Shown here piece by piece: positions 26,734 to 43,604 of a stretch of DNA of 61,491 nt. A program made the position numbers and the translations under genes. The stretch is taken from contig NZ_JAEULZ010000035.1 of assembly GCF_016793485.1 (NCBI RefSeq), positions 1-61,491 of the forward strand, in the 5' to 3' direction. Origin of the DNA: Mesorhizobium sp. (lineage in GTDB: Bacteria > Pseudomonadota > Alphaproteobacteria > Rhizobiales > Rhizobiaceae). Numbering within the stretch: the stretch's first letter is position 1; each line of letters opens with the position of its first letter. The notes below the pieces were generated by a model. It saw nothing but the letters and a program-made list of their open reading frames with translations. It searched no databases and was not told the origin of the DNA.

Positions 26734-26747
26734 TTGCTGCAACGCAA
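26734..26747. promoter_or_regulatory. NnrR-type box between pseudoazurin and the NnrR-like gene
   Basis: TTGCT-GCAA-CGCAA lies about 70 bases upstream of the pseudoazurin start and about 120 upstream of the divergent regulator. It fits the TTGCG-N4-CGCAA pattern repeated elsewhere in the window. Confidence 0.65.
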
Positions 26748-26870
26748 ACAGATCGTGCTGAGAGCCGAAAGGTCGCATCGCGAGAGGGTTGCCGCGACGG
26801 ATTGTGCATGGGACATTCCCATGGCGGCTTTCGACCGGGGCCGCCGGCAGATGACCGAAGGAATGTGAAC

Positions 26871-27575
26871 TTGAGCCGTCTCGACCGCTCGCTGATTTCC
26901 GGGCTTGCGCCATTTCAGGGCCTGACCGCGGTTGATCTCAACCGCATGGTTGGGCAGGCCCATTCGCTCCGCATCGCCAAGGACGAAGCTGTCTTCGAGC
27001 AGGAAGGAGAAGCGCATTCTTTCTTCCTGCTGCTCGATGGGCATGTGCGCGTGATCAGGACGACGCCGGACGGGCAGCAGGTAATTGTGCGCTACATCAG
27101 CCCAGGCGAACTGATGGGAATTGCCCATGCACTCGGCCGCACGACCTATCCGGCGAGCGCCATCGCCGCCGTCGACTGTGTGGTACTCGCCTGGCCGGGT
27201 CGGCTCTGGCCGGAGTTCGCCGCCGCGTTTCCTGATTTTGGCGCCAACACGTATAAGATGGTTGGCAGCAGACTGCAGGACGCCCATACGCGGGTCGTTG
27301 AAATGTCGACTGAACAGGTAGACCGGCGCGTCGCCCACGCTCTCCTCAAACTTGTCAATCAAACGGGCAGGAGGATGGACGAAGGCGTGCTCATCGATTT
27401 TCCTATCTCTCGGCAGGATATCGCCGAGATGACGGGCACGACGCTGCATACGGTCAGCCGGCTCCTTACCGCTTGGGAGGAACAGGGCTTGGTCAAAAGC
27501 GGACGTCAGAAAGTGACCGTAACCGAGCCACATCGACTGCTCATGCTTGCCGAAGGACGCGCGTCCAAGACCTAG
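26871..27575 (+). CDS. Crp/Fnr-family regulator, NnrR-like
   Basis: A 234-residue transcription factor: a beta-barrel sensor domain (KDEAVFEQEGEAHSFFLLLD, VIVRYISPGELMG) and a winged helix (FPISRQDIAEMTGTTLHTVS, RLLTAWEEQGLV). In the recognition helix the Glu of FNR is His (TTLHTVSR), which predicts a half-site other than TTGAT and suits the TTGCG boxes found in front of nitric oxide genes here. There are almost no cysteines, so it is not an Fe-S sensor; NO sensing through heme is usual for NNR/NnrR. The TTG start was chosen for AAGGAA seven bases upstream. ATG 26808 and GTG 26865 are alternatives. Confidence 0.8.
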   Translation: MSRLDRSLISGLAPFQGLTAVDLNRMVGQAHSLRIAKDEAVFEQEGEAHSFFLLLDGHVRVIRTTPDGQQVIVRYISPGELMGIAHALGRTTYPASAIAAVDCVVLAWPGRLWPEFAAAFPDFGANTYKMVGSRLQDAHTRVVEMSTEQVDRRVAHALLKLVNQTGRRMDEGVLIDFPISRQDIAEMTGTTLHTVSRLLTAWEEQGLVKSGRQKVTVTEPHRLLMLAEGRASKT

Positions 27576-27769
27576 CCGGTGCCCGCGTCCTCTTTGGCGA
27601 TAGCCCTCTTCAGGTCGCGAGCGAGCGAGGCCCGGTCCACATCGTGTTCTCTCGCGGCATCGACGATGGTGTGAAACGGGGCGATGGGGCAGCCGACGCA
27701 CAGCAGACCATGATCGAGAACGACACGGATGGTGGCCGGCCATTCTCGCATGATTGCATCCATCGTCAT
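27572..27769 (-). CDS. DUF1858 small protein
   Basis: A 65-residue cytoplasmic protein of the DUF1858 (hybrid-cluster-protein-associated) type, with MTMDAIMREWPATIRVVLDH and the conserved CVGCPIAPFHT. Relatives occur as single genes or fused to DUF2249 in nitric oxide and nitrite stress regulons. The function is unknown; the CxxC could hold iron or a thiol switch. The start at 27769 matches the usual domain length and leaves room for the upstream box. An ATG at 27829 is in frame. It ends overlapping the NnrR-like gene, tail to tail. Confidence 0.8.
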   Translation of the reverse strand: MTMDAIMREWPATIRVVLDHGLLCVGCPIAPFHTIVDAAREHDVDRASLARDLKRAIAKEDAGTG

Positions 27770-27849
27770 CTCGTCGTGCAACCTCTTTCTCACGGCCGAT
27801 ATCCGCATCTGGAAAACGGCCATGTTCATCGCATTCCAGCAAACGATCG

Positions 27850-27863
27850 TTGTGCGGCAACAA
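27850..27863. promoter_or_regulatory. NnrR-type box upstream of the DUF1858 gene
   Basis: TTGTG-CGGC-AACAA lies about 80 bases upstream of the chosen start. It is a weaker version of the pattern seen at six other places. Confidence 0.5.
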
Positions 27864-27877
27864 ACTGAAAAGCGGTC

Positions 27878-28339
27878 TCATTCGAAAAGCCGGGACGCGC
27901 TTGCGCGCCTTGGCGGAAGCGGTGCGGGGAAGAAATCCTCGGGCGTCAGCGTGATGTCTGCCAGCGTATAGCGATCGAGCGTTTCATGGAAGGAGGCCAT
28001 AGCCTCGCCGAGCATGCCGGACAGCTTGCAGGAGTTCGTCAGGATGCACTGGTTACCCGTTGCAAAGCACTCGACCAGCGAGAAATCCGGCTCCGTCATT
28101 CGGATTACGTCGCCGATGCCGATAGCTTCCGGCTGGCGGCCGAGCATCAGGCCACCCGACCGGCCGCGGACGGCCTTGAGATATCCGCCACGCGTGAGCG
28201 TGTTGGCGACCTTGTTCAGATGCGTCTTCGACACCCCGAAGGCGCTCGCCGCCTCCTCGATCGTGATCAGGCGGTCACCCGCCGTGGCGGCATACATCAG
28301 CATGCGCAACGCGTAGTCGGAAAAGCTCGTCAGCCGCAT
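27878..28339 (-). CDS. nsrR: NsrR, nitric-oxide-sensing Rrf2 repressor
   Basis: Fe-S cluster repressor that falls off DNA when nitric oxide attacks its cluster. The 153-residue protein starts MRLTSFSDYALRMLMYAATA, with ASAFGVSKTHLNKVANTLTR for DNA binding and RGRSGGLMLGR for the wing. The three cluster cysteines are in VECFATGNQCILTNSCKLSG (C-x6-C-x5-C). It is the last gene of an operon that starts near 31320, and so probably represses itself through the site at 31367. Confidence 0.9.
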   Translation of the reverse strand: MRLTSFSDYALRMLMYAATAGDRLITIEEAASAFGVSKTHLNKVANTLTRGGYLKAVRGRSGGLMLGRQPEAIGIGDVIRMTEPDFSLVECFATGNQCILTNSCKLSGMLGEAMASFHETLDRYTLADITLTPEDFFPAPLPPRRASASRLFE

Positions 28340-28374
28340 AAGCCATCCCTTGCTTCATTCCCCGACGCCGGACG

Positions 28375-28839
28375 TCAGAGGCTTTCCTTGAGGATTGGCT
28401 TGATCGCGAGCGTGTCGTCACCACGGCTGAACGCGACCGCCAGACGGAAGGAATGCGCGATTCGCAGCGCGCGATCCATAAAGAGGACCGCAACATCTGC
28501 TGGGCAGAGCCTGTCAACTGTGGCGCCGAAAAGCGTCAGCCAGCGGCGGAAATGCTCTTCGTCAAGACCAGGCAGCGCCAGATGCGGCGGCAGCGGCCGG
28601 CCCTGGTACCGTCCCGTGCGCAGGAGCGTCGCCGACCAGAAATCGCACATCCTTGCAAGATGCCGCGGCCAGTCGTCGGGGCGGATCGCGCCGTTGAAGA
28701 TCGGCCCGAGCAGATCGTCGTTGCGGATCTCGGCATAGAACCCATGCACCACGTCGTGGATCATGCGTTCGTCCAGGATTTCTGGCAAAGGAACGCCATC
28801 GACCACGATCGTCGTCCTGCCGGCCGATTGTCCGCTCAT
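28375..28839 (-). CDS. Group III truncated hemoglobin
   Basis: Small heme protein of the truncated globin (2/2) fold, group III, likely to detoxify nitric oxide or other N-oxides. The 154 residues include MIHDVVHGFYAEIRNDDLLG, RMCDFWSATLLRTGRYQG and LPPHLALPGLDEEHFRRWLT. The H in LPPHLAL is the usual proximal-side candidate, and the FW pair is typical of group III. It overlaps the DUF59 gene by four bases and lies 35 bases ahead of nsrR. Confidence 0.88.
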   Translation of the reverse strand: MSGQSAGRTTIVVDGVPLPEILDERMIHDVVHGFYAEIRNDDLLGPIFNGAIRPDDWPRHLARMCDFWSATLLRTGRYQGRPLPPHLALPGLDEEHFRRWLTLFGATVDRLCPADVAVLFMDRALRIAHSFRLAVAFSRGDDTLAIKPILKESL

Positions 28840-29174
28840 CTGCCTGACGCCTTTCTCGCAAACCGCAAATGCGCGCTCGCATTTGAACTCATCATCTCAG
28901 GCGTCCATGGCGGATCATATGCCAGATCGACGTGGACGCGCTCTATCCCCTCGACGATCCCGGCGGCGGATACCACCGCGTCCCTGAGATAAAAAGCTGC
29001 GGGACACCCGGGCGTGGTGGTCGTCATCTCCACATGCGCAAGCCCGCCCTCGCGGACGGCCACCCTGTAGATCAGGCCGAGGTCGACGACGTTCTCGCCA
29101 AGCTCCGGGTCGATCACGATGCGCAGAGCCTGGCGAACCCTTTCCGCCAGTTCTTCCTGGGTCTTGTCGCTCAT
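28836..29174 (-). CDS. DUF59/MIP18-type Fe-S assembly factor
   Basis: A 112-residue protein of the SufT/PaaD family that helps Fe-S cluster delivery. It contains LRIVIDPELGENVVDLGLIY, VEMTTTTPGCPAAFYLRDAV and VHVDLAYDPPWTPEMMS. The Cys in TPGCP is the family's reactive residue. Located between DUF2249 and globin genes with four-base overlaps on both sides, it probably repairs or rebuilds Fe-S proteins damaged by nitric oxide. Confidence 0.88.
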   Translation of the reverse strand: MSDKTQEELAERVRQALRIVIDPELGENVVDLGLIYRVAVREGGLAHVEMTTTTPGCPAAFYLRDAVVSAAGIVEGIERVHVDLAYDPPWTPEMMSSNASAHLRFARKASGR

Positions 29175-29704
29175 CGCCGCCCTCCCCCTGCCGAGCCTGC
29201 GCGGATGACGATGCGATAGTGTCCTTCCGGCTCCAGGCTGCCGCGCCACCGGTGGCCCCTCGCCTTCAGTTCCTCGAACAGAAAGAGCGGCTCGCGCGGC
29301 AACAGCGCGCAAAGTGTCTCCCCGGCGGCAAGACCTTCGACACCGGCAAGCGCCTTCACCATGGGTTCGGGAGGATCGAGATCGCGGCAGTCGATCTCCC
29401 GGGTGGGTATCCGCCAATCGTCGCTCGCTCCCTGCCCGCTCTCGCCCGGCGGTTCCACACCCGGCCCCTTCTCGGCGACCGGCGTAAAAACGACTTCCCA
29501 ATCACCGCCGCCGATCTCACGAGAGACCGGTTCGAAACCGCGTGCGCCAAGCACCTGAAACAGGGGAATCGGCTTGAACGTCGCCAGCAGGCGCAGGCCC
29601 TGGCCGGGCGTCAGTTCCGCCACCGCCTGCATGATGGCGCTGAAGGGCTCCCCGCCGTCGCGCAGGATCGGCCTCACGTCGAGTTCGCGGTGGGGAATGG
29701 TCAT
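29171..29704 (-). CDS. Tandem DUF2249 protein
   Basis: A 177-residue cytoplasmic protein with two DUF2249 repeats. The first, residues 3-75, reads RELDVRPILRDGGEPFSAIM, GLRLLATFKPIPLFQVLGAR and GGGDWEVVFTP. The second, residues 100-165, reads EIDCRDLDPPEPMVKALAGV and LPREPLFLFEELKARGHRW. DUF2249 has the TusA-like (sulfur carrier) fold and is common in nitrogen-oxide regulons; its role is not established. Single-domain relatives are at 37 and 43 kb. Confidence 0.85.
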   Translation of the reverse strand: MTIPHRELDVRPILRDGGEPFSAIMQAVAELTPGQGLRLLATFKPIPLFQVLGARGFEPVSREIGGGDWEVVFTPVAEKGPGVEPPGESGQGASDDWRIPTREIDCRDLDPPEPMVKALAGVEGLAAGETLCALLPREPLFLFEELKARGHRWRGSLEPEGHYRIVIRAGSAGGGRR

Positions 29705-29725
29705 GGAAACCTCCGGGCAACTTGA

Positions 29726-31081
29726 TCAATGATTGCGGCTTGCAGGCAGGAACAGACGGGGCGGCGTGGCGCCATCCGGAAAACGATCCGCTGCGGCAAC
29801 GTTGAAGAGCCTGCGCGCCAGCACCAGTTCGATGACGATCGCGACCGTTGCGAGCAGCGTCACAACCGCCGTCGCGCGGAACAGATTTGGCGCACCCGCC
29901 AGCAATACAACCGTCCCGCCGAGGACGCCCGCGAAGTAGAGCACGAACCACGGTCCGTCGCGTCTTTCCACCATCAGGTCCTGCACGCGCGGCGTGGGCT
30001 TGCGGCCCATAACGGGCCCGTAGCATTCGAGCCAGGTCAGAAACGGTACGATCTTGTAGAGCTGCGACAGCCCCAGTCCTGTCAGCCAGCCGAACGCAAC
30101 GAGATAAACGAGCGCGCCCGCATGAATGGCGAGCGTGCCAGTCGCAAGCAGGCCAAGAAGAAGCGCAGCCGACAGGTAGAGGGCGGCAAAGGCCCCGAGT
30201 GCCGATTTGCTGTTCAGTTCGATGTTTCGCCGCCTTCGGTTGTGATAGAAGGAGGTAAGATCGACGCCGTAGAATGCGAGCGCAGCCAAAGCGGACAATC
30301 CCGCGACGATGCTTGCAATCCTGCCGGTGCCACCCAGGACGAATTCCGCCGGCGCCCCGATGACCACCGACAGTAGCGCGATGCTGCCGCTCCAGAAGAC
30401 CACCTTGTTGGTTGTTCGCTGCGATTCGGGAGCGAGCATGAACATCGGCAGCAGTCGGTAGCTCACGCCAATCGCCGTGAAGGTAAGCCATCCGCCGAAG
30501 CCGGCAGCGGCGTGAACAGGAAGAACCTGGGTCCGAAAATCGATCATCGCCGCGTCGGAGATCAGACCGGAGAGGATGTGCGCGAAAAATGTGCCGAGTA
30601 GGAACGTGGCGGCCAGGCAGGTGAGACCCATGGCAACGAAGCGCGCCGGCAACGGCAATGGTCGCGCCTGCCAGAGCGTGCGGCCCAGCGTCCAGAGAAT
30701 CAGTCCAAAACCGATAGGAAGCAGATAGCCGCCGATCAGCAGGAAGGGGATATTGGTGTCGAGCGTCCCTGTGAGTTGGAGGAACCCCGCCAACAAGGTG
30801 GTGAGGCCCGCAAGCAGACACAGCAGCGCTGGTAGAACCAGGGTCTCGTCGCGGAGAGGCTGTGCGACCAGCACCGGAACGAACTGCAGCAAAGCTCCAC
30901 ACATCAGCAGGCTGAGCCACCCGATCGTCACCGTGTGGACGAGCAACAACGTCTCCGGTGCCTCCGCCGGCATCGTCGGAAAGCCATACCCGGCAACCAT
31001 GAGGCATTCAGCCGCTATCAGGAATACCACCGCGCCAGAGAAGAAGGCCATCGTCCAACGCGACAGGCTCGAACCGATCAT
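29726..31081 (-). CDS. Heme-copper-oxidase-like membrane protein of the NsrR operon
   Basis: A 451-residue protein with about 12 membrane helices. Histidines in helices, LLVHTVTIGWLSLLMCGALL, VLPVHAAAGFGGWLTFTAIG and AIHAGALVYLVAFGW, resemble distant relatives of oxidase or NO reductase subunit I, but the usual copper-site HPEVY-like motif is absent. It may be a heme protein that binds or scavenges nitric oxide, as NnrS does. The start at MIGSSL has GGAGG nearby and overlaps the preceding small gene by four bases. Confidence 0.7.
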   Translation of the reverse strand: MIGSSLSRWTMAFFSGAVVFLIAAECLMVAGYGFPTMPAEAPETLLLVHTVTIGWLSLLMCGALLQFVPVLVAQPLRDETLVLPALLCLLAGLTTLLAGFLQLTGTLDTNIPFLLIGGYLLPIGFGLILWTLGRTLWQARPLPLPARFVAMGLTCLAATFLLGTFFAHILSGLISDAAMIDFRTQVLPVHAAAGFGGWLTFTAIGVSYRLLPMFMLAPESQRTTNKVVFWSGSIALLSVVIGAPAEFVLGGTGRIASIVAGLSALAALAFYGVDLTSFYHNRRRRNIELNSKSALGAFAALYLSAALLLGLLATGTLAIHAGALVYLVAFGWLTGLGLSQLYKIVPFLTWLECYGPVMGRKPTPRVQDLMVERRDGPWFVLYFAGVLGGTVVLLAGAPNLFRATAVVTLLATVAIVIELVLARRLFNVAAADRFPDGATPPRLFLPASRNH

Positions 31082-31320
31082 CGCCGACCTCCGGTAAGGC
31101 CGGATCTCTCGTCGGAGGCTTCCTGCCCCCACCGCGTGGCGTCACGGCAGAGGCCGTCGCAAAGCCACAGAAGCTCGCCGCCCGGAGGGCCAAGACTATT
31201 GCTGCCGCTCAGTTCGACGAGCAAAGCGAGCCGGTCTGCCTGAGCATGGAAATCGGGCCGGCGTCCTCTGCTTTCGAGCGCCCCTGCCGAACCTCGTGAA
31301 TGTGTTCTTGAGAAAGACAT
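31078..31320 (-). CDS. Small unknown protein, first gene of the NsrR operon
   Basis: An 80-residue open frame whose stop overlaps the next gene's start (ATGA). It begins about 50 bases downstream of an NsrR-like site. The readable part (DFHAQADRLALLVELSGSNS) resembles no family I know, and the N-terminus is Ser/Arg-rich. The coupling and position support it being translated. It could also be only a leader. Confidence 0.45.
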   Translation of the reverse strand: MSFSRTHSRGSAGALESRGRRPDFHAQADRLALLVELSGSNSLGPPGGELLWLCDGLCRDATRWGQEASDERSGLTGGRR

Positions 31321-31366: not shown

Positions 31367-31389
31367 AAGATATATTGTCAATATATGTT
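31367..31389. promoter_or_regulatory. NsrR-like operator
   Basis: AAGATATATT-GTC-AATATATGTT is an AT-rich inverted repeat with the AAGAT/ATNTT ends of known NsrR sites (one mismatch between arms). It lies about 50 bases upstream of the first gene of the operon that ends in nsrR, as expected for autorepression lifted by nitric oxide. Confidence 0.65.
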
Positions 31390-31716: not shown

Positions 31717-32262
31717 ATGAACCGCCTATCTATTCCGTTCCTATCAACCCTAGCCTTGCACGCGGGAATCTCCGGGGCGTCTGCGCTGGAATATCCCATC
31801 GGCGAGCCCCGACTGATGAACGGCATGGAGATAGCCGCCGTCTACCTGCAGCCCACCGAGATGGAGCCCGCGAACATCATGAGGCCTGCAGCGGATTCGG
31901 ACATCCATCTGGAGGCCGACATTCGTGCCACGCGGGACAATGTCAACGGATTCGCCGAAGGCGACTGGATCCCCAATCTGACTATCGAATACACGCTGAC
32001 CAAACTCGACGACAACGGGCAGACAGGTGGCGTATTCATGCCGATGGTCGCCAGTGACGGCCCCCATTACGGCGACAATGTAAAACTGATGGGCGCCGGA
32101 AAGTACCGGGTCGTCTACAAGATCGCGTCGGTGGCGCCCGGCACCGCATCATATCTAGGCCGGCACGTCGACAAGGAGACGGGCGTAGGCGCATGGCCCG
32201 AGACCTTCACGGTCGAATACGAGTTCACCTATGCCGGCACCGGCAAGAAGGGCGCCTACTAA
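31717..32262 (+). CDS. ftrA: Periplasmic iron-binding protein, P19/FtrA type
   Basis: A 181-residue secreted protein of the P19 (iron/copper-binding) family that presents ferrous iron to the FTR1 permease. A signal peptide (LSIPFLSTLALHAGISGASA) is followed by LEYPIGEPRLMNGMEIAAVY, METEMEP-like metal residues (QPTEMEPANIM), DSDIHLEADI and GPHYGDNVKLMGAGKYRVVY. His and Met in these stretches are the P19 copper/iron ligands. It heads ftrABCD, known from Brucella and Bordetella. Confidence 0.9.
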   Translation: MNRLSIPFLSTLALHAGISGASALEYPIGEPRLMNGMEIAAVYLQPTEMEPANIMRPAADSDIHLEADIRATRDNVNGFAEGDWIPNLTIEYTLTKLDDNGQTGGVFMPMVASDGPHYGDNVKLMGAGKYRVVYKIASVAPGTASYLGRHVDKETGVGAWPETFTVEYEFTYAGTGKKGAY

Positions 32263-32355
32263 CCCAAATCAGCTGCACCGCACCGCGATGCATGCGCTTC
32301 ACCTGCTGCGCTCGCATGGCGTGGTGGCTCAGCAACCTGCGTTGGAAAGTGTGAG

Positions 32356-32715
32356 ATGCCTGTTTTCGCACGCTTAAAAGCGATCGCCGCCGGCGCAGCC
32401 CTTTTATCGATGTCCGTCGCGGCAGGTGCCGAGGACCATCCGGTCTTTGTTATCGAGTTCAGGGACGGCGTCATCTCGCCTCCGGCGATCGAGGTTCCCG
32501 CCGGTACGCGCTTCAAGCTCGAACTTCGCAACACTGGCCTCAGCCCCGTCGAATTCGATAGCCTCGAACTGCGCAAGGAAAAGGTACTAGGCCCGGGCGT
32601 CACCTCCTTCATCGTCATCCGCAGCCTCGATCCCGGGGAATACCGCTTCTTCGACGACTTCCATCTCGATATGCCGCCCGCCATCCTGATCGCCAGGGAG
32701 CCTGTATCTCCATGA
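32356..32715 (+). CDS. ftrB: Cupredoxin-like protein FtrB
   Basis: A 119-residue periplasmic cupredoxin fold protein, thought to oxidise ferrous iron for the permease. Signal peptide KAIAAGAALLSMSVAAGAE, then FVIEFRDGVISPPAIEVPAG, FKLELRNTGLSPVEFDSLEL and PGEYRFFDDFHLDM. The classic Cys ligand is missing, as in FtrB/EfeO-type cupredoxins, leaving Glu, His and Met as possible ligands. Overlaps ftrC by four bases. Confidence 0.87.
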   Translation: MPVFARLKAIAAGAALLSMSVAAGAEDHPVFVIEFRDGVISPPAIEVPAGTRFKLELRNTGLSPVEFDSLELRKEKVLGPGVTSFIVIRSLDPGEYRFFDDFHLDMPPAILIAREPVSP

Positions 32716-33563
32716 CCGGCCTTCATGGACAAGTGGCCTTCGTCATCTGGCGCGAGAGCATGGAAGCGCTGCTCGTCGTCGGCATCCTCCACGCGTGGCT
32801 GACACATAATGCCGGGTCGAAGGCGATCGCAACCGGCAGGCGCTTCCTGTGGGGCGGCGTCGTTGCCGGTCTGGCAGCAGCCTTGCTTCTGGCTGTCGTC
32901 ATTGTGTCCTTTGCGAGCCTGCTGGAGGGCGATCGCGAGGACTATTTCCAGATTGCCATGGCCGGGTTCAGCGCGCTGCTCATCCTGCAGATGATTGTGT
33001 GGATGCGCCATCATGGCAGCGGCCTCAAGCGAGACCTCGAACGAGGAGCCCAACAGGCGGTGACCGGCGCCAACTGGTGGAGCCTCTTTCTCTTGGCGAT
33101 GATCGCTGTCGCGCGAGAGGGCAGCGAGACGGTTGTCTTTCTTTACGGCATCCTCGCATCCGCGGGCGAAACGGCGCTCGCCGGCAATGTCGGGGCGGTC
33201 GCAGCCGGCTTCGCGCTGGCCGGCGCGCCCTATTGGCTGCTTCAGGCGGGCGCCAGGCGCTTTCCCTGGGGCGTCTTCTTCAGAGTCACCGAGATCCTTC
33301 TGCTGGCGCTGGCCGCGTCGCTGGTCATGACCGCACTCGATCGCGCGATCGGACTCGACCTCGTCTCCCCGCTTGGCGGACCCTTGTGGGATACGTCATG
33401 GCTGCTCGACGACAGCGGTCCGCTCGGCGGCTTCGTCGCCGCGGTGACCGGCTATCGATCCCGGCCCGATCTGATGTCGGCGCTCGTCTACGCTTCATTC
33501 TGGATCGTCGCGGTCGCGCTGCTGCGAATGCGGTTGCCGCATGCTTCGCCCCGGCCATCATGA
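32712..33563 (+). CDS. ftrC: FTR1-family iron permease FtrC
   Basis: A 283-residue inner-membrane permease with seven helices. The two iron-passage motifs of the form REXXE are both present: RESME (about residue 14) in the first helix and REGSE (about residue 137) in the fourth. It imports iron coupled to oxidation in the FtrABCD system. Overlaps both neighbours by four bases, so the four genes are one translational unit. Confidence 0.93.
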   Translation: MTGLHGQVAFVIWRESMEALLVVGILHAWLTHNAGSKAIATGRRFLWGGVVAGLAAALLLAVVIVSFASLLEGDREDYFQIAMAGFSALLILQMIVWMRHHGSGLKRDLERGAQQAVTGANWWSLFLLAMIAVAREGSETVVFLYGILASAGETALAGNVGAVAAGFALAGAPYWLLQAGARRFPWGVFFRVTEILLLALAASLVMTALDRAIGLDLVSPLGGPLWDTSWLLDDSGPLGGFVAAVTGYRSRPDLMSALVYASFWIVAVALLRMRLPHASPRPS

Positions 33564-34975
33564 CCATACGGAACACCCTGCCCGTTCGAGCCTTGTCCGC
33601 GCCCGAAAGCGACATATGGCAAAGCATCGGCGACTGGCTCCTGCGTCACCAGTCGGCAATCCGGCGCGTGCAGTGGTCGGTGGTCTCGATCTATGCCGTT
33701 CTGCTGGTCGTCCCACCCTTTCTGCCGCTTCCCGACAGCACCGCCTACATATGGAACAATTTCACCCGTTTCGCCCAGTTCGTCTTCTGGGGCGTCTGGT
33801 GGCCGTTCGTGCTTCTGAGTACGGCGTTGGTCGGACGGGTCTGGTGTGGGGTCCTGTGTCCCGAGGGCGCGATAAGCGAATTCGTCAGCAGCCACGGACG
33901 CGGGAGAGCAATCCCTCGCTGGCTGACATGGTCCGGCTGGCCGACCGTCGCGTTCGGCTCCACCACGCTCTACGGACAGATGATCAGCGTCTACCAGTAT
34001 CCGCGCCCGGCCCTGCTGATCCTTGGCGGTTCGACCCTTGTAGCTGCCGCGGTCGGTTATCTCTACGGGCGCAACAAGCGCGTCTGGTGTCGATATCTCT
34101 GTCCGGTCAGCGGCGTCTTCGGCCTGCTTGCAAAGCTGGCGCCCCTGCATTTCCGCACCGACCCGTTCCTCTGGCAACAGTCGCAGATGTCGAAGATCAA
34201 ACCGGGGCCGGTGAACTGCGCGCCTCTCGTGCAACTGCGGACCATGCGCGGCGCCAGCGACTGCCACATGTGCGGGCGCTGCAGCGGCTTTCGCGGCGCG
34301 ATCCGCCTGGCCCGGCGCTCGCCCAGCCATGAGATCGTCCATGTCGCCGGAAAGACTCCCCGGCCTTGGGAAACGGTGCTGATCACCTTCGGGCTGATGG
34401 GGGTCGCCGTGGGCGCGTTCCACTGGTCCGCAAGTCCCTGGCTCGTCGCGATCAAGCAGATAGCTGCGGAACGGCTTGTCGGGATTGGCGAGACCTGGCC
34501 GCTCGAAACGTCCGCGCCGTGGTGGCTGTTGACCAACTACCCGGAGCGCAACGATGTCCTGACGCTGCTCGACGGGACGGTTCTCGTCGCCTACATCCTG
34601 GCGACCGCCCTCGCCTGCGGCTCCGCGGTAACACTCATGATAGCCATTGCCGCGCGCAGCCTCGGCCCTTGGAAGACCGCGCGCTTCCATCATTTGGCGC
34701 AGACACTTATTCCGCTGGCCGGCGCCGGCGTCTTCCTCGGCCTCTCCGCCCTCACCGTCAGTCAGCTTCGCTCCGACGGGTTCGCTTTGCCGTTCATCGA
34801 CGCGATGCGTTCCTCTTTTCTCGCGCTCGCATCGATCTGGTCGGGAATCCTCTGCTGGCATGTCAGCGGCATCTACACACGTGCAACAACCCGGCGCGCA
34901 CTGGCGGTGCTGGCCGTGTCTGTGGGGATGAGCGTCGTCAATTCAGGCTGGCTCCTTCTTTTCTGGATCTGGTAG
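33560..34975 (+). CDS. ftrD: Membrane polyferredoxin FtrD
   Basis: A 471-residue membrane protein with about six helices and cytoplasmic Fe-S motifs: CGVLCPEGAISEF, WCRYLCPVSGVFG and CHMCGRCSGFRGA. It resembles NosR/CcoG-type electron-transfer proteins and should accept electrons released when FtrB oxidises iron. The start at MTIRN was chosen over a long upstream open frame that overlaps ftrC almost completely and has no family match. Confidence 0.88.
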   Translation: MTIRNTLPVRALSAPESDIWQSIGDWLLRHQSAIRRVQWSVVSIYAVLLVVPPFLPLPDSTAYIWNNFTRFAQFVFWGVWWPFVLLSTALVGRVWCGVLCPEGAISEFVSSHGRGRAIPRWLTWSGWPTVAFGSTTLYGQMISVYQYPRPALLILGGSTLVAAAVGYLYGRNKRVWCRYLCPVSGVFGLLAKLAPLHFRTDPFLWQQSQMSKIKPGPVNCAPLVQLRTMRGASDCHMCGRCSGFRGAIRLARRSPSHEIVHVAGKTPRPWETVLITFGLMGVAVGAFHWSASPWLVAIKQIAAERLVGIGETWPLETSAPWWLLTNYPERNDVLTLLDGTVLVAYILATALACGSAVTLMIAIAARSLGPWKTARFHHLAQTLIPLAGAGVFLGLSALTVSQLRSDGFALPFIDAMRSSFLALASIWSGILCWHVSGIYTRATTRRALAVLAVSVGMSVVNSGWLLLFWIW

Positions 34976-36842: not shown

Positions 36843-37103
36843 TCACCCGGCCTTAACCTGGGCGCGTTTTCCGACCTCGATCCTCCACTCGGGCGGACCT
36901 TGCCAGATGCACGTCCAGCTGTGCTCCCCATCGAAAAAAGCTGCGAATTTCCGCTCAAGTGCCGTGGGGTCGAAGTCGCAGGCGAAAGTAAAGGTCTGAC
37001 TTGGCCTGAGACCATCGAACATCGACAACACCGCCGCTTGTTGTTTCGCCGGGGGAAGTCTCCGCACATCATAGGTCATGTCACTCAGGGATTGTACGGG
37101 CAT
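36843..37103 (-). CDS. Single-domain DUF2249 protein
   Basis: An 86-residue protein: MTYDVRRLPPAKQQAAVLSM, then FDGLRPSQTFTFACDFDPTA, LERKFAAFF and QGPPEWRIEVGKRA. The Trp-rich end (WIxxGPxxWRIxVGK pattern) is the DUF2249 hallmark. A start at 37079 (MTYDV) is equally good. A box lies about 60 bases upstream. The fold is TusA-like; the role in nitrogen-oxide stress is unknown. Confidence 0.83.
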   Translation of the reverse strand: MPVQSLSDMTYDVRRLPPAKQQAAVLSMFDGLRPSQTFTFACDFDPTALERKFAAFFDGEHSWTCIWQGPPEWRIEVGKRAQVKAG

Positions 37104-37158
37104 CTATTTCCTGATGGCTTGAGAATCGGCATCAGATCAAACGTCATCGCTTGCCTCT

Positions 37159-37172: not shown

Positions 37173-37219
37173 AGAGAGGATCGATGATCGCGCCTATTCT
37201 TTGAAAAAAGGATACGGGC

Positions 37220-37429: not shown

Positions 37430-38008
37430 TTACGAAACCCGCTCTTCGCCCCATCGCTTCAACTCATCGCCAGGATCGACGCCGGCCCAATTGAGCAGTC
37501 GGGCGGCAATCTGTTGGATCATTTCATCAACCGACAACATCTTCACGTAAAACGGCGGCACCGGTGGCGCCACGATCGCACCCATCCTCGCCAGGGCGAG
37601 CATTGCCGAGAGATGCCCCTCGTGGAGGGGCGCTTCCCGCGGCGCCAGCACCAACCTGCGCTTTTCCTTGAGTACGACGTCGGCAGCTCTGGTCAGCAGG
37701 TTGTCCCCGAGACCGTGAGCCATTGCGGCCAAGGACCTCATCGAACACGGCACAACGATCATGCCATCGGTCCTGAACGAGCCGCTGGCGATCGGCGCAG
37801 CGAGATTCTTGTGTGAATGCGTTCGGGTCGCCGCTGCTTTCAGGCGCGCCAGGCCGCCAGCGCCGAGTTCGTGGGCGATCGTTGCTCGCGCGCCTTGCGA
37901 AACGACGAGGTGCGTTTCCACGCCGGCAATCGACAGCAACCGAAGCGTTTCGAGCGCCAGGACGGAACCCGACGCTCCCGTGACGCCGACGATCAGCCGC
38001 TTGTTCAT
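37430..38008 (-). CDS. ubiX: UbiX-type flavin prenyltransferase
   Basis: Makes prenylated FMN, the cofactor of UbiD. The 192-residue protein begins RLIVGVTGASGSVLALETLR and has the motifs GSFRTDGMIVVPCSMRSLAA, LGDNLLTRAADVVLKEKRRL and LAPREAPLHEGHL, all conserved in UbiX/Pad1. It overlaps the ubiD gene by four bases. Together they serve decarboxylation in ubiquinone synthesis. Confidence 0.92.
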   Translation of the reverse strand: MNKRLIVGVTGASGSVLALETLRLLSIAGVETHLVVSQGARATIAHELGAGGLARLKAAATRTHSHKNLAAPIASGSFRTDGMIVVPCSMRSLAAMAHGLGDNLLTRAADVVLKEKRRLVLAPREAPLHEGHLSAMLALARMGAIVAPPVPPFYVKMLSVDEMIQQIAARLLNWAGVDPGDELKRWGEERVS

Positions 38009-39513
38009 TGTTGCTTCCCATCGCTCTGTTGCGGAAAGAACTCGGCCCAGCGCATGGAGACCTGCCGCTCCATGTCCGTCGACATCCACAGCTCCTTTCC
38101 CCACTCGCGGCTGGTTTCGGATCCGATCTTGCGTGTCGCGTCGAAGCCGACCTTTCCTCCCAGCCCCTCGATGGGAGAGGCGAAGTCGAGCTGATCGATT
38201 GGCGTTCGATCTACCCGCATGAGATCTCGGGATGGATCCATCCGGGTTGACATTGCCCACATGACGTCCGGCCAGGACCGGATGTCGATGTCGTCGTCCA
38301 CCACGATGACCAGTTTCGTCATCGAAAATTGAGGCAGGAGCGACCAAAAACCCATCATGACACGCCGCGCCTGACCTGCATGACTCTTGGCAATGGAAAT
38401 CACCGCGATCCTGTACGAACAGGCCTCGGGCGGAAGCCAGGCATCGACGATCTCGGGCATCTGCTGCCTCAAAAGTGGCTTGAACACCTCGATCAGCGCC
38501 TCGCCGAGAACCGAAGGCTCGTCTGGCGCGCGGCCGGTGAATGTGGTCAGATAGTGCGCATCGTCGCGCACGCAAATGCGTTTGAGCTGAAACACCGGAT
38601 AGGATGCGGGAGCGTTGTAGTATCCGGTATGGTCGCCAAACGGACCCTCCAGCGCCATGTCACCCGGCGACACGACGCCTTCCAACACGATCTCGGCGCT
38701 GGCGGGCACATGAAGAGAAATGCTTGCGCAAGGTGCGATCGCCATTCGCCGATTGTTGATCATGCCGGCCAGCGCCAGCTCCGAAACGCCGTCGGGCGTG
38801 GGCATCACCGCTGAGATCATGGTTGCGGGGTCGGCCCCGATAACGACTGCGACCGGCATTTCTGCCGCCTGCGCCTGCCACTGGCGGTGATGCGCCGCTC
38901 CGCCGCGCATCGGCAGCCAGCGCAGGATCGCCCGGTCGGGGCTGATCACCTGCATCCGGTAGACACCGAGATTGTAGGCGCCGGGATCGTCCGCACCCGG
39001 CGGTCGGGTGACTACGAGCGGCCAGGTTATCAGCGGCGCGGCGTCGCCCGGCCAGCAGCGCTGAATGGGAAGGACTGAGAAGTCCCGCCCAATCTCACGC
39101 CAGTTCCGGGGTCGGGAAACGATCCTTGGCCGGGCCAGCAATGCGCTACGCGCGGCCGGCAGCATCAGCCGGGCTTCGCGCAACGTCTGCGGCGGTCGTG
39201 GCGTCCGCATCCATGCCAGCAATTCACCGAGTGATTTCAAGCCTGCCAGGTCAGTGCCCAGGCCGCATGCGACGCGCTCCACCGTACCGAAAAGGTTGGT
39301 TACGACTGGAAAACGCGCTGCCGTGCCTCGGTCGTCGATGGGCCTGGATATACGCAACACCGGTCCCTTCTGCGCAATTACCCGTCGATGGAGTTCCGTG
39401 ATTTCCAGCCGCATTGAAACCGGGACGTCGATTTCTCGCACATCTCCTTGTGTTTTGAGGCGGGTGAGGAACGAGCCGAGATCGGGGAAAGACGGAAGAT
39501 GACGCTGATGCAT
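38005..39513 (-). CDS. ubiD: UbiD-family decarboxylase
   Basis: Removes the carboxyl group of the polyprenyl hydroxybenzoate intermediate of ubiquinone, using prenylated FMN. The 502-residue protein has RISRPIDDRGTAARFPVVTN, LFGTVERVACGLG and EIVLEGVVSPGDMALEGPFG followed by DHTGYYN. The E-GPFGDHTGYY loop is the family's active site. The start at MHQRHLP was chosen because upstream codons run into a strong palindrome at 39554-39585. This may be an anaerobic-condition copy rather than the housekeeping one. Confidence 0.9.
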   Translation of the reverse strand: MHQRHLPSFPDLGSFLTRLKTQGDVREIDVPVSMRLEITELHRRVIAQKGPVLRISRPIDDRGTAARFPVVTNLFGTVERVACGLGTDLAGLKSLGELLAWMRTPRPPQTLREARLMLPAARSALLARPRIVSRPRNWREIGRDFSVLPIQRCWPGDAAPLITWPLVVTRPPGADDPGAYNLGVYRMQVISPDRAILRWLPMRGGAAHHRQWQAQAAEMPVAVVIGADPATMISAVMPTPDGVSELALAGMINNRRMAIAPCASISLHVPASAEIVLEGVVSPGDMALEGPFGDHTGYYNAPASYPVFQLKRICVRDDAHYLTTFTGRAPDEPSVLGEALIEVFKPLLRQQMPEIVDAWLPPEACSYRIAVISIAKSHAGQARRVMMGFWSLLPQFSMTKLVIVVDDDIDIRSWPDVMWAMSTRMDPSRDLMRVDRTPIDQLDFASPIEGLGGKVGFDATRKIGSETSREWGKELWMSTDMERQVSMRWAEFFPQQSDGKQQ

Positions 39514-40065: not shown

Positions 40066-40608
40066 ATGAGCCTGTATGCAACGGAAGGCGGACTGCCGCC
40101 AATCGCCCGGCGCATATTCCCGATCGTTGCCGGATTGCCCCTCGGCCCAATGCTGACGCTATCCCTGCGCTCGCTTGCCCGGCGACGACCCGTGATGTTC
40201 GAACGCCTCGGCGAGCACCGATCGGTACGTTATTTCATCGATCCGGTTGACCTGGCTTTTGCATTCACGATCGTCCCGGACGGGATGCGATCGGTCGTCC
40301 GCGTTGTTCGCAAGGAAGAAGCGGCAGAATCCAGCGTCGTGGTCAGAGGTCCTCTCCTGATGTTGCTCGGCCTACTCGACGGCACGCTCGACGGAGATGC
40401 GCTCTTCTTCAATCGCGTAATCTCGGTCAGCGGAAGCACGGAGGCTGTGCTCGCACTGAGGAACACGATCGAGGATGCAGAACTCCTCCCGGCCGACCTG
40501 CTCGGCCTGAGCGGATCTCTCGCCAGCGCCATGAATGCCGGGATACTCGGTGGCCTGGAAACGTTGAGGCGGCTGACAAGGCCAGAACAATCGCGGGAGG
40601 AAGCATGA
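40066..40608 (+). CDS. ubiT: UbiT, SCP2-domain lipid-binding factor for anaerobic ubiquinone synthesis
   Basis: Binds hydrophobic ubiquinone intermediates for the oxygen-independent pathway. The 180-residue protein has an SCP2 fold seen in RSVRYFIDPVDLAFAFTIVP, RGPLLMLLGLLDGTLDGDAL and FFNRVISVSGSTEAVLALRN. The DGDALFFNR-I-V-GSTE motif is typical of UbiT. It overlaps ubiU by four bases. Confidence 0.9.
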   Translation: MSLYATEGGLPPIARRIFPIVAGLPLGPMLTLSLRSLARRRPVMFERLGEHRSVRYFIDPVDLAFAFTIVPDGMRSVVRVVRKEEAAESSVVVRGPLLMLLGLLDGTLDGDALFFNRVISVSGSTEAVLALRNTIEDAELLPADLLGLSGSLASAMNAGILGGLETLRRLTRPEQSREEA

Positions 40609-41603
40609 GATCGAAGCGCATTGAGTTGGTCTGCCCTGCCGGGACGCCTGCGACGCTCAGGGCGGCAGTGCAGGCCGGCGCCGATGCCGTCTATTGCGGG
40701 TTTCGCGACGAAACCAACGCCCGAAACTTTCCCGGGCTCAATTTCTCGACGGAGGAAATGGCGGAAGGGGTCCGTTTCGCCCACGCGCATGGCAGCAAGG
40801 TTTTGGTCGCCATCAACACCTTTGGCAGGGTGGGAAGCGTGGACCTGTGGCGCAAGGCGGCGGATGCGGCGGTTGGGTGCGGCGCGGACGCCATAATCGC
40901 CGCCGACATCGCCGTGCTCGATCACGTTGCAAGGAACCACAAACAAATACGCCTTCATTTGTCAGTACAGGCCGCGGCTGCGACGCCTGAGTCGATCGGC
41001 TTCTATGCCGAGACGTTCGGTGTCCGGCGGGTCGTCCTGCCGCGAGTGCTGACCATCCATGAAGTCGCCACACTCAATCGGGCTATCCATGTCGAGACGG
41101 AAGCCTTCGTATTCGGTGGTCTGTGCGTAATGACGGAAGGCCGCTGCTACCTCTCCTCCTACGCAACCGGAAAATCGCCGAATTTGCACGGCGTCTGTTC
41201 GCCGCCGGAAATGGTCAGCTACGAGGAGGATATCGACGGCACCGTGGCGCGTCTGTCCGGCTTCACCATCGATCAGTATTCACCCGGTGCGCCGGTGGGT
41301 TACCCGACGCTGTGCAAGGGACGGTTCAAGGCTGGTGACAAGACCTCCTACCTTTTCGAGGATCCCGTCAGCTTGAATGCGGGAAGCATGATTGCCGGGC
41401 TGAGCGCGGCCGGCGTTACGGCCTTGAAGATCGAGGGCCGCCAGCGCGGCAAGGGCTATGTGACCGAGGTGGTTCGCACATTCAGGAGGGCCGTCGACGC
41501 GGTCGAGCAAGGTAGCGACACGATCGAGATCGATCGCATACTGGCGGGTCAATCGGAAGGCGGCCGGCAGACAACCGGCGCCTACAGGAAGTCCTGGAGA
41601 TGA
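40605..41603 (+). CDS. ubiU: UbiU, U32-family Fe-S protein of anaerobic ubiquinone synthesis
   Basis: With UbiV it hydroxylates the ring without oxygen. The 332-residue U32 protein has LVCPAGTPATLRAAVQAGAD, the family's EAFVFGGLCVMTEGRCYLSS, then HGVCSPPE and YPTLCKGRF. These give the four cysteines that hold a 4Fe-4S cluster in E. coli UbiU. The C-terminal GLSAAGVTALKIEGRQRGKG is the U32 hallmark. Four-base overlaps on both sides. Confidence 0.93.
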   Translation: MRSKRIELVCPAGTPATLRAAVQAGADAVYCGFRDETNARNFPGLNFSTEEMAEGVRFAHAHGSKVLVAINTFGRVGSVDLWRKAADAAVGCGADAIIAADIAVLDHVARNHKQIRLHLSVQAAAATPESIGFYAETFGVRRVVLPRVLTIHEVATLNRAIHVETEAFVFGGLCVMTEGRCYLSSYATGKSPNLHGVCSPPEMVSYEEDIDGTVARLSGFTIDQYSPGAPVGYPTLCKGRFKAGDKTSYLFEDPVSLNAGSMIAGLSAAGVTALKIEGRQRGKGYVTEVVRTFRRAVDAVEQGSDTIEIDRILAGQSEGGRQTTGAYRKSWR

Positions 41604-42538
41604 CCGTGCAGAAAGTCGCCTTGACGCTGGGGCCGGTCTTCTTCCACTGGTCTCCCGCGAGGTTGGCGGACTTCTACCGCCGCATTGGCGACGAAGCTCC
41701 GATCGATCGGGTCCATGTCGGCGAGGTCGTCTGCGGCAAGCGGATGCCGTTCTCCGATCCAGCTTGGCCCGACATCATTGAGCGCCTGGAGCGCGCGGGA
41801 AAGGAAGTGGTGATTTCTACCCTTGCGGCACCGGCAACCGTGCGGGAGCGCCGGAGCGTTGATGATCTTAGCACCGATGAACGTCTGATCGAAATCAACG
41901 ACATCACCGCCCTGCCATCGCGCGCAGGACGGCCTTTCGTCACCGGGCCTTTCCTTAATGTGTACAATGAAGCCGCTGCGCAGTTCCTGATCGATCGTGG
42001 CGCGCGCTCGATTTGCCCGCCGGTCGAACTTTCCCTCGCAGCCATCGGCCATATGGCGCAGGCATGCCAGGAAGCTGACTTCGAGGTCTTCGCATTCGGC
42101 CGGCTGCCTCTCGCCATATCCGGACGATGCTACCATGCGCGGCACCATGGGCTCCACAAGGACTCCTGCCAGTTCACCTGCGAAAAGGATCCCGACGGCC
42201 TCGCGGTCGATACGCTTGACGATCAGGAATTCCTCGCGATCAACGGTGTGCAGACGCTATCCAATCAGGTGCAGGCCTTCCTGCCCGTACCCGGGGAACT
42301 GACTGCATGCGGGGTTCGGCGCCTGCGCCTTTCGCCCCAGACCGCGGACATGGTGGAAGTGGCAAGGACCTACAGGGCCTTGCTGGACGGCAGAGAAGAC
42401 CCCCAAAGCGCGCGCTTCCTTCTGTCATGCCTCGAACTGCCCGGCGTGATGGTCGACGGATACGCATACGGCAAGCCCGGATGGGAGGCGACCACATCGG
42501 CACCGGGCTGGACGCAACTCCGCCAGGAAAGAACATGA
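41600..42538 (+). CDS. ubiV: UbiV, U32-family partner of UbiU
   Basis: A 312-residue U32 protein shorter than UbiU. Cluster cysteines are in GEVVCGKRMP and in LAISGRCYHARHHGLHKDSC followed by QFTC, matching the C-x(n)-C-x12-C-x3-C pattern of UbiV. VPGELTACGVRRLRLSPQTA near the C-terminus is also typical. Forms a heterodimer with UbiU. Coupled to ubiU and to the MogA/MoaB gene by ATGA overlaps. Confidence 0.93.
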   Translation: MTVQKVALTLGPVFFHWSPARLADFYRRIGDEAPIDRVHVGEVVCGKRMPFSDPAWPDIIERLERAGKEVVISTLAAPATVRERRSVDDLSTDERLIEINDITALPSRAGRPFVTGPFLNVYNEAAAQFLIDRGARSICPPVELSLAAIGHMAQACQEADFEVFAFGRLPLAISGRCYHARHHGLHKDSCQFTCEKDPDGLAVDTLDDQEFLAINGVQTLSNQVQAFLPVPGELTACGVRRLRLSPQTADMVEVARTYRALLDGREDPQSARFLLSCLELPGVMVDGYAYGKPGWEATTSAPGWTQLRQERT

Positions 42539-43041
42539 CCCAGATTGCGATCGTCACAATATCGGATCGTGCCAGCCGCGGAGACTATGAGGACCTTAGC
42601 GGTCCGGCCATCGAAAAGTGGCTACGCCGTGCCATCACCGGGCACTACAACCCCGTCCACCGAATGGTGCCTGATGGGCTGGAAAGCGTCCGGGACGTGC
42701 TTCTGAATCTCGTCGATGTAGGCGGCGTGGATCTCATCCTCACAACGGGTGGCCCCGGCCCATCTCCCCGGGACCTTACTCCAGAGGCCATGCGCGAGGT
42801 GATCACGAAGGAACTCCCTGGTTTTGGCGAGCTCATGCGGCAAGCCAGCCTCAAGCATGTGCCCACGGCCATCCTTTCACGTCAGACAGCCGGTGTGCGG
42901 GGCCGTTCCCTGATCGTGAATCTGCCGGGGAAGCCGTCGTCGATAGAAGTGTGCCTGAATGCCGTGTTCCCGGCCGTCCCTTATTGTCTGGAACTGATCG
43001 GCGCGGGGCGCCTTGTCGCGGATCATCCCTCGATGTTGTGA
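42535..43041 (+). CDS. MogA/MoaB-family molybdopterin adenylyltransferase
   Basis: Adenylates molybdopterin before MoeA adds molybdenum. The 168-residue protein has IAIVTISDRASRGDYEDLSG, LILTTGGPGPSPRDLTPEAM and GVRGRSLIVNLPGKPSSIEV, the MoCF domain motifs of MogA. It may supply cofactor for NarG. It is odd to find it at the end of a quinone operon, but both are needed for nitrate respiration. MogA and MoaB cannot be told apart with confidence here. Confidence 0.88.
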   Translation: MTQIAIVTISDRASRGDYEDLSGPAIEKWLRRAITGHYNPVHRMVPDGLESVRDVLLNLVDVGGVDLILTTGGPGPSPRDLTPEAMREVITKELPGFGELMRQASLKHVPTAILSRQTAGVRGRSLIVNLPGKPSSIEVCLNAVFPAVPYCLELIGAGRLVADHPSML

Positions 43042-43167
43042 TAAAGCTCTGTTGGGCCGAGGTCATCGCGCCCGGCGAAAATCATCACGCAGCGCTATTT
43101 GAAATGGTGTTCCAGGTCCGGATGCCGCAGGGTCCTTCCCAGGCGCCGCCTCGTCGAAACCTGTGCG

Positions 43168-43445
43168 TCACGACCCGCAACAACAGTCGCAGCCTGACGG
43201 CGCCTCTTTTCCGATCTTGACGCGCCAGACCATCGGACCCTGTTCCAGATATTCCCAGACGATCAAGCCCGGTATTTCGTCTCGATCTGGTAATGCAGGG
43301 GACGTGGATCATGGTCACTGATGATCGTGAAGCATTCGTCCGGTTCCAGGCCCTCGATCATGCCGAAGATCCGTGGGTGGCGCTCGAAAGGCGGTATGGT
43401 GCGCACGTCGATCGAGGGGATCGAGGCGGCTTGTGCTGCGGTCAT
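43168..43445 (-). pseudogene. DUF2249 protein with a one-base frameshift
   Basis: The first part reads SIDVRTIPPFERHPRIFGMI, EGLEPDECFTIISDHDPRPL, HYQIETKY and then hits a TGA. In the next frame it continues PGLIVWEYLEQGPMVWRVKI, GKEAPSGCDCCCGS and stop. One missing C in the run at about 43266-43270 explains it. The cysteine-rich tail CDCCC is unusual for DUF2249 and might bind metal. Divergent from hemN, with a box between. Confidence 0.8.
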
Positions 43446-43590
43446 GTCAGAAAAATCCTTGTTCCGCCCTGGGATTGCTCGCCTCGGGAGAGGACGGATG
43501 CGCTCCCGCATCCAAAGGCTAGCGGGCCAACGGTCAGGCGAGCTTGTCGAAACGCAAACTCCTCGAAGAAATACTCGAAGCGTTCCTGAC

Positions 43591-43604
43591 TTTGGCATTT
43601 CGCA
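43591..43604. promoter_or_regulatory. NnrR-type box upstream of hemN
   Basis: TTGGC-ATTT-CGCAA, set in CTTTG-N8-CAAAG, lies 66 bases upstream of the hemN start and about 145 from the divergent DUF2249 gene. One arm is imperfect. Confidence 0.55.

Follow-up and report, generated by a model that had tools for sequence, protein, structure and literature searches.

The question raised by contig NZ_JAEULZ010000035.1 (C48) of Mesorhizobium sp., whose entire 61,491 bases constitute the window analyzed here, is whether a set of TTG-N8-CAA palindromes scattered among genes for nitric oxide (NO) handling, iron import, and oxygen-independent heme and ubiquinone synthesis represents the operators of one regulon and, if so, which protein reads them. 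The contig belongs to a 5.21-Mb genome (G000; 52 contigs, estimated as 100% complete and 2.26% contaminated). An earlier account prepared from the letters alone (the sequence-only reading) had proposed seven such palindromes as marks of a shared NnrR-type regulon: all seven are present as written, six at the coordinate given and the seventh one base further on, at 43592-43605 (43591 had been stated), and the shared site class is upheld by their top ranks with an independently derived matrix and by their conservation. As judged from these data, the seven sites are a real and conserved predicted NnrR-type regulon. With a probability of roughly 0.7, we interpret them as operators of an NnrR-type Crp/Fnr activator that would switch NO, heme, ubiquinone and iron genes.

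The window contains 24 matches to TTGN8CAA against 10.6 expected, a count reached in none of 100 shuffles. Between 14,360 and 45,025, where 9.2% of the bases are intergenic, 11 of the 14 matches are intergenic (binomial P about 1e-9); the expectation that such sites should not be equally common within genes is thus borne out in the window. All seven palindromes lie between genes, as had been claimed, when start codons are chosen to agree with the domain matches; in the longest possible open reading frames, 26734, 36233 and 39563 would fall inside nnrR, nnrS2 and ubiD, and 43544 and 43592 inside the longest frame that spans the 43263 DUF2249 gene, with 37159 falling in an opposite-frame reading frame at 36678-37187. 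For scoring we used a symmetric matrix of 107 distinct sites with their flanks, collected in other genomes close to the starts of pseudoazurin and DUF1858, from whose training the 22-mers equal to window sites were excluded. Run over all window positions, this matrix places the seven sites at ranks 1-7 (Table 1), the fully independent part of this result being the five sites that do not precede the two promoter types used in training, both of which also occur in the window. An FNR-class site at 23871 and an in-gene site at 36420 follow at ranks 8 and 9 (15.3 each). In 60 second-order Markov sequences a mean of 0.12 positions reached the lowest of the seven scores (overall maximum 23.4), and the top score in the reversed window was 12.7. 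Beyond the original seven we noted the site at 43544-43557 (rank 10), the FNR-class sites 23871 and 24008, and 37357.

The sites had been described as mostly 50-90 bases from a start. This is the case for six of them, with 56-87 bases between the site center and the nearest start codon: about 77 for pseudoazurin, 69 for nnrS2, 86 for DUF2249, 56 and 60 for ubiD and the 39630 gene, 72 for hemN, and 87 for DUF1858 if it begins at the internal ATG at 27769. A DUF1858 start at 27829, the first ATG, was set aside, since it would leave only 27 bases to the site and 27769 appears to fit the domain better. The departure from this spacing is 31534, whose center is about 155-176 bases from ftrA and at least 408 from nnrS3.

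Conservation was followed both in a close relative and across orthologs. The relative, G018, aligns at 88-91% identity over most of 24953-45023; 9 of the 98 bases in the seven sites differ and none of the 42 TTG/CAA core bases is changed, but the in-gene site 36420 is likewise unaltered, so that identity alone is no proof. Position 37357 was rejected as an eighth operator on this comparison, as both its halves are changed and its core is lost in G018. A site is found within 300 bases upstream of 62 of 64 pseudoazurin orthologs (mostly about -90) and 63 of 67 DUF1858 orthologs (mostly about -34 from the first ATG); as controls, reversed upstream sequences yielded 2 sites in each set, and 19,128 and 14,019 coding bases yielded none. 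Many of these loci are from related Mesorhizobium and hence non-independent, yet the bases enclosed by TTG and CAA differ among them. Among orthologs of operon-internal genes, a site is seen in 0/13 for nsrR, 0/20 for the sufT-like gene, 0/8 for ubiX, 0/7 for ubiU, 1/13 for the 28375 gene and 1/26 for DUF2249-TusA, the exceptions being nnrS1 behind pseudoazurin (12/43) and moaB (1/1). The site placed before hemN is present and conserved, but it is one of a pair in which each member has a single good half; a pair, at -126/-78, is seen in G014 too.

The candidate reader of these sites is the Crp/Fnr protein encoded at 26865-27575, which combines a cNMP-binding-like sensor domain with a Crp-type HTH (PF00027, PF13545) and lacks an FNR-type N-terminal cysteine cluster, the first 60 residues being free of cysteine. 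The assertion that it has His in place of the FNR Glu is confirmed: alignment to the Crp-family structure 4ev0 sets this His opposite Glu, at the position of CRP E181, and His is retained in 87 of 89 matched segments (at least 45% identity), with Phe in the other two and Tyr in L013. A search of solved structures with the protein recovered family-level relatives, including DNR and FixK2. Its identification as NnrR is supported by synteny, with nnrR lying beside DUF1858, NnrS and pseudoazurin; in Phaeobacter, nnrR is beside nirK, DUF1858, nor-like genes and NnrS, and the nearest named NnrR loci, among the best 80, are those of Chelativorans, Mesorhizobium and Aminobacter. From these loci, a position of the organism close to the Phyllobacteriaceae seems probable.

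A second intact NnrR, 70% identical and with the same TTLHTVSR helix, is encoded on contig C25, accompanied by a pseudoazurin, a DUF1858 and an NnrS gene of its own and by two NnrR-type sites. The window sites could belong to this paralog, leaving the 26865 protein redundant, an explanation favored by the intact state and full company of the C25 gene; we regard it as quite improbable, as Tn3 and conjugation genes in the vicinity of the C25 gene point to its later acquisition, while the 26865 gene retains synteny with its targets both in G018 and, over the available sequence, in Chelativorans multitrophicus. A TGA inside the match might mark the C25 gene as a pseudogene, but this was dismissed, as the frame reads an intact protein ending there. 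The immediate neighbors of the C25 set (L098-L101) include a Tn3 transposase, a resolvase and VirB8/TrbI/CagX genes, and several FNR-class TTGATTTT sites are also present on that contig.

In the mechanism proposed here, the 26865-27575 protein and/or its C25 paralog would act as the reader: with NO, probably at low oxygen, its dimer would bind TTTGCG-N4-CGCAAA through a helix with Leu-His at the positions where CRP has Arg-Glu and FNR has Val-Glu, and would activate from about 40 bases upstream of the transcription start. Its predicted targets are the NO-linked genes for NnrS, DUF2249, DUF1858 and pseudoazurin, the iron import genes, hemN for oxygen-independent heme synthesis, and the genes for oxygen-independent ubiquinone synthesis, with ubiXD and ubiTUV both served from one divergent site.

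All six ubiD orthologs with sequence have a site upstream, toward the divergent ubiT, and in five it carries an NnrR-class half. In a sample of ten plasmid records, from 30 of the 229 listed, each of the five replicons carrying NnrR (from Mesorhizobium B2-1-1 and B2-1-8, M. loti NZP2037, Aminobacter SR38 and Chelatococcus CO-6) has an NnrR-class site in the ubiD-ubiT gap, with matrix scores of 17.5 to 28.2, that of M. loti falling within the annotated start of a hypothetical gene. The same gap shows TTGAC/TTGAT-type sites in Roseibium, Defluviimonas, Ruegeria and Paracoccus denitrificans, and TTGAC-N4-GACAA in Leisingera. We also surveyed a sample of 61 genomes, seeking NnrR genome-wide and counting matches of at least 38% identity (G047 and G050 (27%) thus being taken as without it); UbiU was found in 13. 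With site classes sorted by eye, and leaving out three genomes with no site (G024 with NnrR, G029 and G058 without), the half is NnrR-class in five of the six genomes with both NnrR and a ubiT site (G000, G014, G018 and the hybrids G041 and G046), whereas all four genomes without NnrR (G028, G048, G050, G056) have an FNR-class site nearest to ubiT: Fisher P is 0.048, or 0.19 if a second ubi-promoter site of G028, with a TTGCG half, is counted (1/4). From these comparisons, the ubiD/ubiT site appears to recur across lineages and its half-site tends to track NnrR, the numbers being small. In the nnrR mutant of Bradyrhizobium diazoefficiens, the sterol-binding gene bll7628 is down 10-fold and the U32 gene bll7627 15-fold (PMC6710368); by their family names, these would be ubiT and ubiU or ubiV. 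An NnrR-class site was also seen inside ubiU, at position 4706, in three Mesorhizobium plasmids (L233, L234, L241; scores 19.1-22.8).

Several observations weigh against a single NO-responsive reader of a dedicated site class, and they bear on three further explanations. At the level of the genome, TTGYKN4MRCAA shows no excess (51 matches versus 56 for the reversed pattern), and the other genome matches adjoin genes without an evident role in NO metabolism, most of those to a longer pattern, TTTGBN6VCAAA, being intergenic as well. Among these neighbors are a BacA-like transporter and a cold-shock gene, a multicopper oxidase beside a MerR-type gene, an Rrf2 gene, a CobW-like gene and an MFS transporter, and the counts yielded no list of further targets. 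The enrichment is local: six of the 51 core matches are in this contig against 0.6 expected (five of the seven sites and 37357), as are seven of the 25 longer matches (16 in the reversed pattern) against 0.3 expected (six of the seven and 52318), both patterns having been picked after the sites were viewed, so that their P values are descriptive. Outside the window, with a crude gene caller, 12 of the 16 matches to the core pattern that were examined are in genes, but 12 of the 15 examined matches to the longer one are intergenic. The lack of a genome-wide excess is what chance palindromes would produce; against the ranks of 1-7 with an independent matrix and the phylogenetic conservation, we consider the likelihood of chance negligible.

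The other adverse points concern the link between regulator and site. The hemN ortholog sites are of mixed class, and the initial view of a plain NnrR site before hemN has to be qualified accordingly; G019 has NnrR yet an FNR-class ubi site; in G024, with NnrR and UbiU, no site was found upstream of ubiT; and the pseudoazurin genes of G014, G032 and G041 (L087, L096, L093) have FNR-class (TTGAC-type) sites despite a His-type NnrR ortholog. Judging by these last promoters, the residue-to-site rule is not absolute. The main rival is a FixK/FnrL-type regulator as principal reader, conveying low oxygen via a FixLJ-FixK cascade with NnrR as one target or helper, because the FixK2 consensus, TTG(A/C)-N6-(T/G)CAA, overlaps the site class (PMC6710368). 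FixK2 of B. diazoefficiens activates nnrR and nnrS from a single box in vitro, and the box tabulated before its nnrR is of the class seen here, so the oxygen cascade could read the same sites (PMC6710368); in E. coli, ubiTUV is under Fnr (PMC10470549). We nevertheless deem this reading unlikely, as the half-site in the ubi promoters tends, if weakly, to follow the presence of NnrR, and the window has separate FNR-class sites at 23871 and 24008. An intermediate arrangement, in which some sites are shared by, or contested between, FixK/FNR and NnrR so that low oxygen and NO are integrated, is a possibility to which we give rather more credence, short of an even chance: several hemN, ubi and pseudoazurin orthologs pair a CGCAA half with a TTGAT/TTGAC half, and cycA of B. 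diazoefficiens needs both FixK2 and NnrR (PMC6710368), but the strongest window sites are of the symmetric NnrR class. Thus, the suggestion of the sequence-only reading that quinone, heme and NO genes share one NO signal is retained only in part: genes of all three kinds are included at shared sites, but a single NO signal is less secure given the overlapping FixK2 consensus and the second intact NnrR.

Returning to the NnrR-type regulon, 31534 had been assigned to an ftr/NsrR operon. The ftrA side of this assignment is the more likely one, because the NsrR-like operon has a box of its own at 31367-31389. Among 24 nnrS3 orthologs (L084 and L103-L153 among the loci), such a box precedes 6 of the 8 runs with nsrR versus 1 of the 16 without (P 0.0013), the box rule having been fixed after the window box was viewed and 13 of 1,999 chunks of 80 named loci giving such a box. 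An NnrR-class site (score above 14, within 450 bases) shows the opposite distribution, with 2 of 8 runs with nsrR versus 15 of 16 without (P 0.0013), or 12 of 16 without nsrR (P 0.032) when the weak or distant L088, L089 and L152 are dropped. The two exceptions are G018 and Chelativorans multitrophicus, where, as in the window, the site also faces ftrA. Hence, from these promoter comparisons, control of nnrS3 seems to alternate between an NsrR-like regulator and NnrR, and ftrA is the most likely gene to be served by 31534, which perhaps acts on both sides. The hallmarks of NsrR are a trio of conserved cysteines and an AT-rich operator of 11-1-11 form; the protein encoded at 27878-28339 carries CFATGNQCILTNSC, and the operon-upstream box goes with nsrR. 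This protein falls below the curated cut-offs for both NsrR (121.0 bits versus 182) and RirA (121.6 versus 193), and because of the former the name NsrR is provisional.

An NnrR would be expected to regulate nir and nor genes. In a profile search of the genome the best NirK score was 73.9 bits against a cut-off of 296.3, and there was no match at 1e-60 to Phaeobacter NirK, a query that finds 18 of the 61 genomes, including G018. The G018 nirK (C2:172573-173646) falls between the aligned MFS and nnrS1 segments, an interval occupied in the window by the FtrB-type gene alone. Seen over the larger segment (G018 C2:170495-174065 versus window 23727-24953), this FtrB-type gene has two TTGAT-class sites (23871, 24008) upstream. 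The NirS model PF02239 gave two partial matches in one 616-residue frame (40.3 and 32.4 bits, over the Pfam cut-off of 25.5), which we rejected as NirS, since by eye the protein looks like a YVTN-repeat protein. No cNorB match was obtained at 1e-60 (7 of 61 genomes have one, whereas G018 and several other nirK genomes also have none); quinol-dependent NorB was not searched for, and its presence in the genome, hence a nor target of NnrR, is a live possibility. NosZ was found neither in this genome nor in the control genomes, though the model recognizes a Mesorhizobium NosZ. The genome thus shows no NirK or cNorB and no convincing NirS as objects of nir/nor regulation (qNor having not been searched), and lacks a detectable usual nitrite reductase, NosZ or cNorB, the last being the sole NO-side enzyme sought, such as a complete denitrifier would have. 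The window pseudoazurin frame leaves the family sequence near its C-terminus (170 residues, 66 of 69 matched orthologs having 143-147), and contig C25 carries an intact copy (L100:7053-7487). The altered end may reflect either a sequencing error or degeneration of the gene once nirK was lost. It is conceivable, if somewhat doubtful, that the NnrR regulon has been uncoupled from denitrification in this nitrate-reductase genome without nirK at the syntenic place, and kept to time the anaerobic supply of ubiquinone, heme and iron, with NO from side reactions or neighbors serving as a signal for oxygen-independent cofactor synthesis.

The site, the regulator type and the nnrS, hemN and DUF1858 targets are already known, and it is the genomic setting that is uncommon. 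Rodionov et al. (2005; PMC1274295) reported the alphaproteobacterial NnrR consensus ctTTGcgnnnncgCAAag, the same as the window motif, with nnrS and hemN as targets, as proposed here, and found specificity residues to be correlated with the contacted bases. In their account a COG4309 gene is probably co-transcribed with NnrR-regulated nor genes and all six NnrR genomes have nir and nor, whereas the present genome yielded no NirK, cNorB or NosZ, and its matches to the NirS model are unlike NirS; moreover, alphaproteobacterial NsrR is there confined to R. capsulatus E1F1, whereas here an NsrR/RirA-like gene comes with its own box. The likeness to the B. diazoefficiens NnrR regulon resides in DUF1858 next to nnrR, hemN1/2, a group III haemoglobin and the sterol-binding and U32 pair (PMC6710368, Table 1); nnrR deletion lowers hemN, DUF1858, that pair, nirK and nor, and in that text the word ubiquinone is absent and the NnrR consensus is called undefined. 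In Hyphomicrobium denitrificans, a ubiXDTUV/nor/ftrA/hemN cluster brings genes for oxygen-independent ubiquinone synthesis, iron import and hemN near those of NO reductase, and ubiXDTUV, ftrA and hemN change alongside denitrification genes; this cluster was studied via mutants of other regulators, sHdrR and SoxR, and NnrR is not mentioned in that text (PMC12423496). The E. coli ubiUVT system is similar in having a Crp/Fnr-family activator with sites near ubiT and ubiUV, and differs in that the activator is the oxygen-sensing Fnr with TTGAT half-sites, rather than an NO regulator with TTGCG (PMC10470549). Oxygen-independent ubiquinone synthesis was itself described in 2019 (PMC6747719), and in the accessible parts of the open-access literature control of ubiTUV by NO or NnrR was not found stated by name.

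The window would thus supply a conserved DNA basis for placing oxygen-independent ubiquinone synthesis under an NO regulator in rhizobial relatives, a pathway at which the Bradyrhizobium data hint without naming it. DNR control of PA3911-3913 in P. aeruginosa forms part of the background; one Dnr paper of that species contains none of these names. The NnrR- versus FNR-class sites between ubiD and ubiT provide a natural experiment in the exchange of regulators at similarly placed operators, with the NsrR-like box versus NnrR site before nnrS3 as a second such case, and the locus is a possible instance of an NO regulon outliving the nitrite reductase that it usually serves.

Table 1. Predicted operators and genes of the window, with matrix rank and score where a site was scored; bases retained are those of each 14-base site in the relative G018
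Feature	Coordinates	Strand	Rank (score)	Remarks
NnrR-type site TTGCTGCAACGCAA	26734..26747		5 (21.1)	between pseudoazurin and nnrR; 14/14 retained
NnrR-type site TTGTGCGGCAACAA	27850..27863		7 (16.3)	upstream of DUF1858; 12/14 retained, TTG/CAA kept
NnrR-type site TTGCGCTAGCGCAA	31534..31547		1 (30.3)	most symmetric; nearest start ftrA; 14/14 retained; in 2/2 ftrA orthologs
NnrR-type site TTGTGCTGGCGCAA	36233..36246		3 (26.0)	between nnrS2 and orf36410; 12/14 retained; in 4/4 nnrS2 orthologs with upstream sequence
NnrR-type site TTGCGCAAGAACAA	37159..37172		2 (26.2)	upstream of DUF2249 gene; 12/14 retained; in 1/3 orthologs
NnrR-type site TTGCAAAAGCGCAA	39563..39576		4 (23.7)	between ubiDX and divergent 39630-ubiTUV; 11/14 retained
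hemN site B TTGGCATTTCGCAA	43592..43605		6 (16.4)	14/14 retained
hemN site A TTGTCGAAACGCAA	43544..43557		10 (14.1)	48 bases from site B, absent from the sequence-only reading; 14/14 retained
NsrR-like 11-1-11 palindrome AAGATATATTGTCAATATATGTT	31367..31389			23 bases; upstream of nnrS3...nsrR-like operon
NnrR-type Crp/Fnr regulator	26865..27575	+		helix TTLHTVSR; cNMP_binding (PF00027) and HTH_Crp_2 (PF13545), orthologs, alignment to Crp-family PDB chain
narG, narH, narJ-like, narI	14360-21054			respiratory nitrate reductase
MFS protein	21073-23787			904 residues; upstream of narG
Crp/Fnr protein of FtrB type	24042			NCBIfam model, over cut-off
NnrS 1	24940..26154	-		PF05940
Pseudoazurin	26151..26663	-		TIGR02375
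DUF1858 protein	27572..27829	-		hybrid-cluster-associated disulfide domain, TIGR03980; likely start 27769
Five-gene run: nnrS3-like, DUF2249-TusA, SUF-associated protein, 28375 gene, NsrR/RirA-like Rrf2 regulator	27878..31132	-		nnrS3-like gene without Pfam match; 28375 gene without family match
Iron import: Iron_transport, cupredoxin, FTR1, Fer4_5	31717..34975	+		Pfam
NnrS 2	34998..36170	-		PF05940
orf36410	36410-36799			small gene without Pfam match, beside nnrS2, at NnrR-type site
DUF2249 protein	36846..37079	-		PF10006
UbiX and UbiD	37430..39513	-		profile matches
39630 gene	39630-40064			small gene without Pfam match, beside ubiT, at NnrR-type site
UbiT, UbiU, UbiV	40066..42538	+		oxygen-independent ubiquinone synthesis; curated NCBIfam equivalog models NF047962, NF047963, NF047965, all three over cut-off
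moaB, second DUF2249 gene	43263 (DUF2249)			between ubiV and hemN; molybdopterin adenylyltransferase first
HemN	43670..45025	+		oxygen-independent coproporphyrinogen III oxidase; TIGR00538, over cut-off

Outside the regulon proper, the MFS protein upstream of narG is long enough for a fused NarK1-NarK2, a known type of fusion. An initial guess that the gene at 24042 encodes NarR was discarded in view of its over-cut-off FtrB-type NCBIfam name. The gene at the place of 39630-40064 is annotated as hypothetical in Mesorhizobium.

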